From Clostridiaceae bacterium (GTDB lineage: Bacteria > Bacillota > Clostridia > Clostridiales > Clostridiaceae), in assembly GCA_014380625.1 (NCBI GenBank), contig JACMJL010000113.1, positions 1 through 37,016 on the forward strand: a stretch of 37,016 bases of DNA, given 5' to 3'. A program made the translations under genes and the position numbers. Below, piece by piece: positions 13,316 through 28,376 of this stretch. Positions within the stretch are counted from its first letter, which is position 1. Every line of letters begins with the position of its first letter. Under the pieces are notes generated by a model. The model was not told the origin of the DNA. It searched no databases and saw only the letters and a list, made by a program, of their open reading frames with translations.

Positions 13316-14161
13316 ATGGAGTACGGAAAGTTATATTTAGTAACAACACCAATTGGAAACTTAAAGGATATTACCTTAAGAGCTCTTGAAACTTTAAAAT
13401 TTGTTGATATTATTGCAGCTGAGGATACGAGAAATAGTTTAAAACTACTTAATCATTTTGAGATTAAAAAAACCCTGATTAGCTATCATATGCATAATGA
13501 ATTAGGGAAAAGTGATGAATTGATTGGAAAGCTTAAGGCAGGGTTAAATATTGCATTGGTAACAGATGCAGGGATGCCTGGGATTTCAGATCCAGGAAGT
13601 ATCATCGTAAAACGATGTATTGAAGAAAACCTCCCTTTTGAAGTTTTGCCAGGGGCTACGGCCTTTGCTACAGCTTTGGTTTATTCAGGGCTAGATACAA
13701 CTAAGTTCGTATTTAAAGGGTTCCTACCTAGGGAAGATAAAGATAGGAGACCTATAGTACAAGAAATGAAGGATCGAACTGAAACTATAATAATCTATGA
13801 GGCTCCTCATAGATTATTAAATACATTAAACTTTCTTAAAGATAACTTGGGAAATAGAAAAATCTCAATTTGTAGAGAGCTCACAAAGCATTATGAACAG
13901 GTCCTACGAACAGATATTGAGGGGGCTTGTGAATATTTTATAAATAATGCTCCTAGAGGAGAGTTTGTAATTGTTATTCAGGGCAAACCGTTAGAAGAAA
14001 TTGAAGAAGAAAGAATCTCTAAATGGGATATGCTAACAATAGAAGAGCATATTAAAAAGTATATAGCCGAAGGAATTGATAAAAAAGAGGCCATCAAGAG
14101 GGTCGCAAAGGATAGGAGGATTACAAAGTCTGAGATATATAGGCATTCTATTGAACTCTAG
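13316..14161 (+). CDS. rsmI: 16S rRNA C1402 2'-O-methyltransferase RsmI
   Basis: A 281-residue tetrapyrrole-methylase-fold enzyme. Signatures: GKLYLVTTPIGNLKDITLRA at the N terminus, AAEDTRNS, VTDAGMPGISDPG, and PGATAFATALVYSGL. It adds a 2'-O-methyl group to C1402 in the ribosomal P-site. The C-terminal part (ITKSEIYRHSIEL) is the usual RsmI helical end. It lies 22 bases after the methyltransferase gene with an AAGGAAGG ribosome site, so the two are probably cotranscribed. Confidence 0.95.
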   Translation: MEYGKLYLVTTPIGNLKDITLRALETLKFVDIIAAEDTRNSLKLLNHFEIKKTLISYHMHNELGKSDELIGKLKAGLNIALVTDAGMPGISDPGSIIVKRCIEENLPFEVLPGATAFATALVYSGLDTTKFVFKGFLPREDKDRRPIVQEMKDRTETIIIYEAPHRLLNTLNFLKDNLGNRKISICRELTKHYEQVLRTDIEGACEYFINNAPRGEFVIVIQGKPLEEIEEERISKWDMLTIEEHIKKYIAEGIDKKEAIKRVAKDRRITKSEIYRHSIEL

Positions 14162-17085: not shown

Positions 17086-17332
17086 TGTTGATAATTTTCA
17101 TGGTTATTAAATATTTGGTCAAAGTTGACTGAAATTAATTCCAAAATATGTATTGAAAATCTATTAAAAAATCATTACTAACAGCTAGTCCACAAATATT
17201 TTACAAGTTATCAACAGGGCAACTGTGGGTAATGTGGATTAAAATATTGAAATGTTTAACAGAATGAAAATATAGCGATATTTAAGGGTTATCCACAGAA
17301 ACTGTGCACAATAAATTTGAAACTGTGGACAA
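17086..17332. other. DnaA-box cluster 1
   Basis: Seven 9-mers that match or nearly match the DnaA box TTATCCACA. On the plus strand: TTATCAACA 17208-17216 and a perfect TTATCCACA 17289-17297. On the minus strand (read as complement): 17086-17094 (TTATCAACA), 17224-17232 (TTACCCACA), 17234-17242 (TAATCCACA), 17303-17311 (TTGTGCACA, two mismatches), 17324-17332 (TTGTCCACA). There is no gene in the surrounding 900 bases. DnaA binding is inferred. Confidence 0.7.
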
Positions 17333-24512: not shown

Positions 24513-24989
24513 TTATTTAATCTCTTCTAAAAGGCAAATACTCTGAGAAGAAATACCTTCTTGCCGTCCTGTAAAGCCTAATCCTTCTTCAGTGGTAGCT
24601 TTAACATTTACTTTGTCAATATCAATGTGTAGGGCTGAAGCTATATTTAACCTCATCTCATTAATATAGGGTGCCATCTTTGGCTTTTCAGCTATTATAG
24701 TTGAATCAATATTAACAATAGTATAATGATTTGCACTCAGAAGAGTGCCTACTTCCTTCAATAAAAACACACTAGAAATACCCTTGTATTTTTCATTGTT
24801 ATCGGGAAAGTGTTTACCGATATCACCTAAGCTAGCAGCTCCCAGTAAACTATCCATTATAGCATGAAGCAGAACATCGGCATCAGAGTGACCAAGTAAT
24901 CCTTTCTCATAAGAAATATTAACTCCGCCAATTATCAGTTTTCTATTCTCAACTAATCTATGTACATCGTATCCCATACCAATTCTCAT
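24513..24989 (-). CDS. ispF: 2-C-methyl-D-erythritol 2,4-cyclodiphosphate synthase
   Basis: A 158-residue enzyme of the MEP isoprenoid pathway, forming the cyclic diphosphate from CDP-ME 2-phosphate. Zinc ligands Asp8, His10 and His42 are present in [12 protein letters not shown] and [16 protein letters not shown]. Also [13 protein letters not shown], and the C-terminal [13 protein letters not shown]. Length is standard for a homotrimer subunit. GAGGTGAG lies before the ATG. Its usual partner ispD is not adjacent. Confidence 0.96.
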
Positions 24990-25398: not shown

Positions 25399-25442
25399 TT
25401 TAGTATTAATTTTACATTTTTAATATTAAGGAGAAATTGCTT

Positions 25443-26087
25443 ATGAAAGGTATAGGGAAAAAAATTATAACAACTAGAACTATTGGAATGCTTTTAGTTA
25501 TTACAGGGATTGCAATAGTTCTAGTTGCTTTTGGAATGCGGTATTACGGAGAAACAAAGCAACGAAACATGATGAATGATTTTGAAAAAAGCATTACAAA
25601 TTATAAACAGGAAGATAGTGCTGAAAGTCCTGAAAGTCCTGAAAGTACCAGAAGTCAACAAGATAATGTTCCTAAAGACAAAGAACCCATTGAGGGACTT
25701 GGTACAATAGGCATAATTAGAATCCCTAAAATAGATCTTAAAGTTGCCATCGGAGAAGGCGTAGATATGAATACTTTAAAATATGGAGTAGGTCATTTTC
25801 CACAAACAGCCATGGCTGGCCAAAAGGGTAATTTTTGTGTTGCTGGTCATAGGAGTTACACCTATAGTGAATATTTTAACCGATTAGAAGAGATAAATAA
25901 GGGGGATGAAATTTATGTTAAAACAAGAAAGGGGGAATATAAGTATATTGTCTATGATAAAAAGGTAGTAGAGCCATCGGAATACTCTGTTTTAGACGCT
26001 ACTCAGGATGCTACCTTGACCTTAATAACTTGTACACCTATAAGAGCAGCAACTCATCGGTTGATAATTAAGGCAAGAATGCAATGA
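25443..26087 (+). CDS. Class D sortase
   Basis: A 214-residue membrane-anchored transpeptidase. The N-terminal helix is about residues 14-33. A low-complexity linker with repeated SPE units (encoded by three near-identical 9-base repeats at 25622-25648) leads to the sortase barrel: GTIGIIRIPKIDLKVAI, His136 in VAGHRS, Cys197 in LITCTP, and Arg206 in THRLII. It would link LPXTG-type proteins to the wall; no such substrate is encoded in the window. The ATG at 25443 is chosen because AAGGAG is 8-9 bases away; the TTG at 25437 is too close. Confidence 0.9.
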   Translation: MKGIGKKIITTRTIGMLLVITGIAIVLVAFGMRYYGETKQRNMMNDFEKSITNYKQEDSAESPESPESTRSQQDNVPKDKEPIEGLGTIGIIRIPKIDLKVAIGEGVDMNTLKYGVGHFPQTAMAGQKGNFCVAGHRSYTYSEYFNRLEEINKGDEIYVKTRKGEYKYIVYDKKVVEPSEYSVLDATQDATLTLITCTPIRAATHRLIIKARMQ

Positions 26088-26104: not shown

Positions 26105-26405
26105 CTATCCACAAACTATCCACAAAACTGTGGATAATGTTAGTAATGAAAATTATTAATAGCTCAAATTCTCATTAAAAATATTTATTGTATGCTAATT
26201 CATATAAAATATAGCACAAATAAATGTATAATATTGTCTAATAACATAAGATTCACAAGTTATCAACAGGCATTCTGTGGATAATGTTAATAATGTGTAT
26301 AAGAATAATAAAACAATTTGATATATTCTGAATTATTAAGGCGAAATTTAGATAAAACCTCTTAGCTAATATGTATTATTAAATGAAAGTAACAAGTTAT
26401 CAACA
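26105..26405. other. DnaA-box cluster 2
   Basis: Seven DnaA-like 9-mers. Plus strand: CTATCCACA 26105-26113 and 26116-26124 (an 11-bp tandem repeat), TTATCAACA 26260-26268 and 26397-26405. Minus strand: perfect TTATCCACA at 26129-26137 and 26276-26284, and TTATACACA at 26294-26302. The block ACAAGTTATCAACAGG also occurs in cluster 1 (17203-17218) and occurs here twice (ending 26270 and 26407, the latter beginning with the same ACAAG). The rest of 26088-26490 is AT-rich and noncoding. Confidence 0.7.
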
Positions 26406-26493
26406 GGAAAACAGAAGTTTATGTTAATAATGTTAATAAGCTTTAGGGAGCCCTTTGCAGGATGATTTAAGGAAGAACAAAACTCACAAAGAG

Positions 26494-26527
26494 ACAAGCC
26501 TACCATAGAGGCTTGTTTCTTTTTTAT
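26494..26527 (+). terminator. Orphan terminator upstream of the efflux operon
   Basis: Perfect 8-bp stem ACAAGCCT (26494-26501) with AGGCTTGT (26509-26516), then TTCTTTTTT. It lies 400 bases after the sortase stop, so it may end a long sortase transcript or a small RNA. Confidence 0.75.
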
Positions 26528-26651: not shown

Positions 26652-28376
26652 ATGAAAATTAAGTTGTTCAAAAACAAGAAGGTTAAAAATTCAGTAATAG
26701 GCGGTATTATAGTGGTATTATGCGGCGGAGGGCTTACCAGTTATATTCTTTATAATAATGCTAAAAAAAATGCACCTAATACTAAATTTACAACTACAAC
26801 CGTAAAGTTAAGCACTATCAGTACAAGCATAAGTGCAAGTGGAACAGTAAGCAATAGTGCTCAGATTGATCTTATACCTTCTTCTGGTGGAACCTTAGAT
26901 ACTTTAAATGTTAAAGAGGGCGATGCAATTAAAACGGGAGACCTTTTAGCAAAAGTAACAGATTCTAATTCAGCTTTAACAATACAATCCGCAAAAAATG
27001 CTGTTTCTAATCAGACACAAGCTTTGGCTAAACTTGTGAAGAGTAAAACTAGTCTTTATACTAAGGCAGCTACAGCTGGAAGAGTTAAAAATGTAAATAT
27101 TGCTGTTGGGGATGATCTAGCAAATGCAAAGAGTTTAGGAAGTATAATGGTGATTTCAACAGATGGTAATCTAAAAGCCAGTGTTAACTATGATTCAACT
27201 AAAATTACATTAGCTCAAAGTGATGTGGTGGATGTTAGTATAAAGGGTGCAGTTGTTGCTCAAGGAACTATTGCAAGTATTAATCAAGGACAAGGATCCT
27301 CTTCAATAAATGTTTTAGTACCCGATACTCTAACAGTAGGAGTAATAGCAACTTTTTCAAAAGCTGGTACAACTATTGGATCTGCGGCCCTTTCGGTAAA
27401 CGCTCCGGTAGAAGTACAGGGTACAACAGGTACAATTACTAATCTTTATGTATCTGAAAATTCCACAGTTAGTAAAGGCTCTAACTTATTTAAGATAGAT
27501 GGCACTGAACTAGACAATAATATTGCATCACAAACTCTATCTGTTACTCAGGCAGAAAATGACCTTGCGGCTAAGCAGGCTAGTGTTGGTAAAAATAGTC
27601 TTACAAGTCCAGTAACGGGTATTGTAGCAACAATTAATTATAATCTAGGAGACAGTATTCCTGCTACTAAAGCAGTTTTAACGGTTTTAGACCCAAATAA
27701 AATGCAGACTGTAGTTTCTGTTGATGAACTTGATATTGGAAAAGTTAAAATGGGACAAGCGGCTACAGTAACTCTTGATGCTATACCAGGTAAAACCTTT
27801 AATGGAACTGTTACAAGGATCTCTAATGTAGGAACTGTGGCTAGTGGTGTTACTACATATAGTGTAACTATAGCAATCGACAAAGGTGATGCTGTAAAAG
27901 TAGGCATGACCTCTAGTGTTTCCATAATAGTCGAGAAAAAAGAAAATGTACTTGTTATTCCCGTTAGTGCTCTCGCTAGCACAAAATCAGCACAGGGTTC
28001 AAAGGCTGTATATATATCAACTGGACTTACAGCAACTACTAGTACTTCTGGTAATGTTAGTGCTGGAGCACCAAGATCCAACGCAGCTACATTAAATAGT
28101 AGTTTAAAAACTCAAAGCCAGGTAGCGGCGGCTATGGTAAAGAATATAACTACAATAAAAACAGGTATGCAAACTTCTACATTAATTGAAGTTACTAGTG
28201 GACTTAAAGAAGGTGATATAATTGCTATCCCTGTAGTAACTAAGGCAACTACTACAGCAGCAGCTACAACCGCTACAACTAAAACTACAACCAAAACAAG
28301 TAATGCTACAGGCGGCTTTGGAGGTGGAGATATGGGTGGACCTCCAACTGGTGGTGTGAGACCTAGTGGAAACTAA
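26652..28376 (+). CDS. HlyD/MacA-like efflux adaptor with two barrel-sandwich modules
   Basis: A 574-residue membrane-anchored protein: helix at about 15-34, then extracytoplasmic. Two lipoyl-like half motifs (GGTLDTLNVKEGDAIKTGDLLAKV near 88-112 and TGTITNLYVSENSTVSKGSNLFKID near 255-280) each lead into a helical stretch and a second half motif, so the module appears twice. Beta-barrel and proximal domains follow (VVSVDELDIGKVKMGQAATVTLD; VLVIPVSAL). The C terminus is Thr/Ala-rich, then Gly/Pro-rich. This is longer than the usual 350-420 residues. It would couple the ABC pump to its substrate at the cell surface. GAGAGGAAGG precedes the ATG. Confidence 0.85.
   Translation: MKIKLFKNKKVKNSVIGGIIVVLCGGGLTSYILYNNAKKNAPNTKFTTTTVKLSTISTSISASGTVSNSAQIDLIPSSGGTLDTLNVKEGDAIKTGDLLAKVTDSNSALTIQSAKNAVSNQTQALAKLVKSKTSLYTKAATAGRVKNVNIAVGDDLANAKSLGSIMVISTDGNLKASVNYDSTKITLAQSDVVDVSIKGAVVAQGTIASINQGQGSSSINVLVPDTLTVGVIATFSKAGTTIGSAALSVNAPVEVQGTTGTITNLYVSENSTVSKGSNLFKIDGTELDNNIASQTLSVTQAENDLAAKQASVGKNSLTSPVTGIVATINYNLGDSIPATKAVLTVLDPNKMQTVVSVDELDIGKVKMGQAATVTLDAIPGKTFNGTVTRISNVGTVASGVTTYSVTIAIDKGDAVKVGMTSSVSIIVEKKENVLVIPVSALASTKSAQGSKAVYISTGLTATTSTSGNVSAGAPRSNAATLNSSLKTQSQVAAAMVKNITTIKTGMQTSTLIEVTSGLKEGDIIAIPVVTKATTTAAATTATTKTTTKTSNATGGFGGGDMGGPPTGGVRPSGN

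Follow-up and report, generated by a model that had tools for sequence, protein, structure and literature searches.

Paired DnaA-box arrays, non-coding and close to oriC, are widespread in the Clostridiaceae, where they are probably ancestral, and both members of the pair, here called type A and type B, lie downstream of rsmI in the window, i.e. the whole 37,016-nucleotide stretch analysed (contig JACMJL010000113.1 of the Clostridiaceae bacterium assembly GCA_014380625.1). We consider it fairly probable that these arrays are clusters which titrate DnaA near oriC and delay re-initiation, as in Bacillus subtilis. The features of the window on which the analysis is based are as follows.

13316..14161, + strand: rsmI, encoding a 16S rRNA methyltransferase (PF00590), the positional anchor upstream of both arrays.
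17086..17094, − strand: outlying box TTATCAACA, 114 bp ahead of the type A array.
17203..17332, + strand: type A DnaA-box array (cluster 1), with boxes 17208+, 17224-, 17233-, 17289+, 17303- (two mismatches) and 17324-.
24513..24989, − strand: ispF (PF02542), which often adjoins type B arrays in relatives.
25437..26087, + strand: sortase gene (PF04203), directly upstream of the type B array and the same neighbour in some relatives.
26105..26302, + strand: type B DnaA-box array (cluster 2), with boxes 26105+, 26116+, 26129-, 26260+, 26276- and 26294-.
26105..26124, + strand: tandem double box CTATCCACA-AA-CTATCCACA at 11-bp offset, kept as '+11+13-' in type B.
26255..26296, + strand: ACAAGTTATCAACAGG-CATT-CTGTGGATAATGTTAATAATG, a facing pair at 16-bp offset with an upstream ACA half-site and a downstream degenerate abutting box.
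26392..26407, + strand: third exact copy of the 16-mer, containing box 26397+, an extra outlying box.

A preliminary description of this DNA had reported seven boxes, two of them perfect, at 26105-26405, and the box scan confirmed this: seven DnaA boxes with at most one mismatch from TTATCCACA are present, with 26129(-) and 26276(-) perfect. The 11-bp tandem pair noted there was likewise found, its two CTATCCACA copies starting at 26105 and 26116, and the separation of about 9 kb between the clusters amounts to 8.8 kb when taken to the nearest edge of cluster 1, which as a whole spans 17086-17332. Dinucleotide shuffles of the whole window (n=500) reached a maximum of three boxes per 301 bp vs the seven observed, and the maximum was also three in shuffles of the local 700 bp (n=5000). 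Written as box orientations and start-to-start offsets, the geometry is +16-9-56+14-21- for cluster 1 and +11+13-131+16-18- for cluster 2. Fixed-offset templates of the two architectures scored 48/54 on cluster 1 (shuffle maximum 35) and 55/63 on cluster 2 (shuffle maximum 38), type B scores of 40-48 overlapping in part with type A and therefore to be read with care. When the window sequences were left out of profile building, the profiles recovered both clusters (E=1.1e-20 for cluster 1, E=4.8e-23 for cluster 2).

The exact 16-mer ACAAGTTATCAACAGG occurs at 17203, 26255 and 26392 only, the whole 4.37-Mb assembly having been searched, in agreement with the earlier count of one copy in cluster 1 and two in cluster 2; the sole other match with a single mismatch in the source genome (contig C303) lies outside any cluster. 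A common repeat or mobile element was rejected as its source, since no exact copy lies outside the window. A repeat that appears unrelated, ACAAGTTATCAACAAG, is scattered over contig C1 of genome G133 in seven copies. The spacer between the 16-mer and CTGTGG, described as five bases, is actually four (GCAA in cluster 1 and CATT in cluster 2), and five only if counted to TGTGG.

What the 16-mer shares beyond the box became clearer from 55 type A elements, in the choice of which half-sites played no part. Of the 55, 44 carry ACA at −5 relative to the first box and 26 carry it at −16. In the facing pair with the 14-bp offset, a TGT lies 11 bp past the start of the second box in 35 elements; counts at most other offsets were close to zero. 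Given these peaks at fixed offsets, ACAAG-TTATCAACA consists of a box preceded by the last bases of a degenerate one, which lies 11 bp upstream. Judged from the sequences, the TGT after TGTGGATAA is the start of an abutting box, and what the copies have in common outside the box belongs to half-sites of adjacent boxes, with no separate module. Types A and B do share a sub-motif, in which two boxes face each other at a 16-bp offset and a further (degenerate) box comes next. The claim of a defined repeated module as opposed to chance therefore held in part: the arrays are real and defined and their shared sequence is meaningful, but they are not one module in two copies, because each cluster is an array of its own kind with its own conservation.

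This conservation emerged from a survey covering about 20 kb (less at contig ends) of each of 120 Clostridiaceae genomes, anchored on rsmI, a gene found in 145/147 genomes of the family, and with an array taken as at least four boxes downstream of it. In 90 of the 120 genomes, an array was present no further than 17 kb downstream of rsmI, vs 0/600 shuffles, and 28 genomes had two; arrays at rsmI were seen in 29/36 genera, and some genera are without a detectable array there. Two architectures recur, i.e. +16-9-(~50-75)+14-21- for type A and +11+13-9-(~105-130)+16-9- for type B, and of about 680 boxes in the arrays 233 are perfect. The orientation of type A relative to rsmI is the same in 89/90 loci. 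The preliminary description had proposed a search of the genome and of related clostridia, where absence from close relatives would speak against the element; array counterparts are in fact present in relatives, and in named Clostridium species the counterparts of both clusters lie between rsmI and the ispF/rluB region, with differing intervening genes. No arrays were found at 22 non-clostridial rsmI loci (363 kb), and among 291 Clostridia genomes type A matches above 40 bits were confined to the Clostridiaceae, with weaker and in part partial ones elsewhere, in a search with Infernal's stricter filters, which lose weak matches.

Nearly all arrays (118/120) are intergenic, and their neighbouring genes fall into 38 families, among which a DUF1836-like protein, transaldolase, ispF and a deacetylase recur (names from reading of the sequences). 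Flanking genes turn over while box spacing and orientation stay. Between genera, boxes are 83 % identical vs 31-42 % for gaps, spacer and flanks, the box figure being inflated by the use of the boxes for selection.

Intergenic location and recurring neighbours would fit DnaA acting as a transcription factor for the adjoining genes. In B. subtilis it does so at sda or ywlC, for example, and it regulates genes at several DnaA-box clusters (PMC4447404). Nevertheless, we regard this explanation as unlikely: neighbours vary widely, with 17 neighbour pairs for type A alone, the common ones do not include those of the window, i.e. arcC at cluster 1 and a gene of the HlyD type (beginning at 26652) downstream of cluster 2, and near both window clusters promoter-like matches stayed at shuffle level. 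A strong terminator-like hairpin is located at 26488-26522, between the type B array and the HlyD-type gene. Other genes of the window include tmk, a c-di-AMP receptor gene, holB, a PSP1-domain gene and a trmN6-like gene, in addition to rsmI.

The source assembly consists of 338 contigs, one of which is the window. Its dnaA gene is on a different contig, together with a recognisable oriC in which boxes flank dnaA on both sides and a GC-rich stretch plus the DnaA-trio CCCCTACTACTACTATTACTA stand ahead of dnaN. All profile matches at E<=1e-6 in the source genome fall inside the two clusters, both models in this case including the window sequences, and none of 30 perfect-box loci elsewhere in that genome is in a cluster (0/30). 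Facing-box pairs also occur outside the window at C83:16220 and C313:10947, where the profile searches report no array. A second, weaker Bac_DnaA-domain match (46.6 bits) lies in a 330-aa frame at C185:4133-4495 and probably represents a helicase-loader-type ATPase.

A DnaA-trio was found within 150 bp of 0/118 arrays, including both window clusters, and at 28/29 dnaA loci. The offsets in clostridial oriC (facing 11/12, tandem 12, 37-38 and 53-54, divergent 30) differ from those in the arrays as well. A second origin was therefore ruled out.

The chromosomal position of the arrays is constrained. In 21 complete or nearly complete relatives with an array, rsmI lies downstream of dnaA without exception and on its strand, i.e. 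on the right arm, at distances computed from the listed positions as 79-492 kb in 20 of them and 856 kb in one (G086). When whole genomes of 15 relatives were searched for the facing-pair pattern TTATCMACA-N0-30-TGTKGATAA, we counted 39 places in the resulting list, of which 19 are within 20 kb downstream of rsmI and six at oriC. One genus (G055, G078, G095 and G134, four complete genomes) has rsmI on the left arm, yet its best A- or B-like matches, which are weak (28-39 bits), remain on the right arm at 60-375 kb from dnaA, as if the array had kept its oriC side while rsmI moved. A further facing-box element (TTATCCACAGTGTnnATA...AACAnTGTGGATAA) recurs at G089:C1:51057, G116:C1:5034490 and G130:C1:1904138, approximately 50, 423 and 472 kb from dnaA, and may be a third conserved array.

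Because the arrays are intergenic, have diverse neighbours, lack a DnaA-trio and keep to one arm, we favour a position-linked assembly of DnaA over the control of single genes or a second origin. We infer that DnaA would bind the arrays and influence initiation. DnaA would assemble cooperatively on an array which, lying near oriC, would be duplicated soon after initiation; the duplicated array would then draw free DnaA from oriC and thereby delay re-initiation (initiator titration). Precedents exist in B. subtilis, in which deletion of six DnaA-box clusters led to early initiation (PMC5295017, PMC13220808), and in E. coli, in which enrichment of boxes near oriC has been proposed to titrate DnaA (PMC12371093). 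Both window clusters also agree with the definition of DnaA-box clusters (DBCs), i.e. at least three boxes with a mean spacing below 100 bp, away from dnaA. The array at about 860 kb from dnaA in G086 and the genera without a detectable array at rsmI count against titration. Moreover, simple titration needs many good boxes and not a base-pair-exact geometry, so that spacing as strict as this suggests a more specific role than that of a passive sink.

The arrays might instead be DARS-like sites, in which facing boxes would hold ADP-DnaA head to head, speed up nucleotide release, regenerate active DnaA and promote initiation, an explanation that we rate as distinctly improbable. In the E. coli K-12 sequence, DARS2 and DARS1, which we take to lie upstream of mutH and uvrB, share the arrangement +14-12- (L297, 636/650/662; L298, 1608/1622/1634), and from location and number we infer these boxes to be the published core boxes I-III; boxes I and II have opposing orientations (PMC8682772). 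Type A ends in +14-, followed by the conserved TGT half-site at 11 bp and a box at 21 bp, has the same polarity as the E. coli core, and in some genera reads +14-11- outright. However, clostridial oriC (oriC1) also has +11/12-12-, so that this topology is not exclusive to the arrays, and according to a review B. subtilis is without DARS (PMC13220808). The resemblance is therefore suggestive only, as judged from box layout. If at least one of the arrays were DARS-like, the Clostridiaceae would have a dedicated pair of fixed-geometry DnaA-regulatory arrays, and the nucleotide state of DnaA in Gram-positive bacteria would be set by DNA sites, convergently with E. coli, which we likewise hold to be improbable.

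A positional or structural element, such as DnaA-bridged looping to oriC or an origin-domain anchor, would account for the constant arm, orientation and position and for the rigid array geometry, yet the distance to dnaA varies from 79 to 856 kb, and we consider this explanation very unlikely. That the facing pairs, being near-palindromes, are sites of a different DNA-binding protein reading a similar palindrome, or a mobile repeat, is extremely unlikely, as most boxes match the DnaA consensus exactly or nearly so, the arrays are not dispersed and the spacers, unlike those of a mobile element, cannot be aligned.

Compared with these alternatives, titration of DnaA near oriC remains our preferred explanation. 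Regardless of mechanism, the family-wide, base-pair-exact spacing despite changing neighbours points to selection on the nucleoprotein structure itself. The arrays bear on whether Gram-positive bacteria control replication via DnaA-binding sites outside oriC, and with two sites of approximately 130 and 200 bp they provide a compact target on which clostridial models of titration, reactivation or looping can be tested. In the open-access literature, we found neither an account of conserved DnaA-box arrays outside oriC in Clostridiaceae nor one of a fixed DBC geometry common to several genera; subscription journals may hold some on the former.

Among known systems, the DBCs of B. subtilis (Okumura et al. 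2012, as presented in PMC5295017 and PMC13220808; binding map in PMC4447404) resemble the arrays in having 4-11 boxes outside oriC (4-8 in the surveyed arrays by the scan used), several on the origin side and mostly intergenic, but in these presentations they are located at ywcI, gcp, trmE, ywlC, sda and yydA, with none at rsmI. Clostridial oriC1 and oriC2, known from work on C. difficile (PMC7561715), contain the same 9-mer boxes, clustered and intergenic as in the arrays, at other spacings, and oriC2 has the DnaA-trio that the arrays lack. In E. coli, where DnaA-box pairs have been studied (PMC11317965), datA and the oriC-proximal boxes are likewise non-coding clusters, for which titration of DnaA shortly after initiation has been proposed (PMC12371093), although datA is IHF-dependent and its box layout is unlike that of the arrays. 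Finally, while DARS2 needs IHF and Fis (PMC4245941), and the third box of DARS1 and DARS2 follows at 12 bp vs 11 or 21 bp in the arrays, both partly resemble type A in that two facing boxes of the same polarity stand at a 14-bp offset with a third box in tandem behind them.
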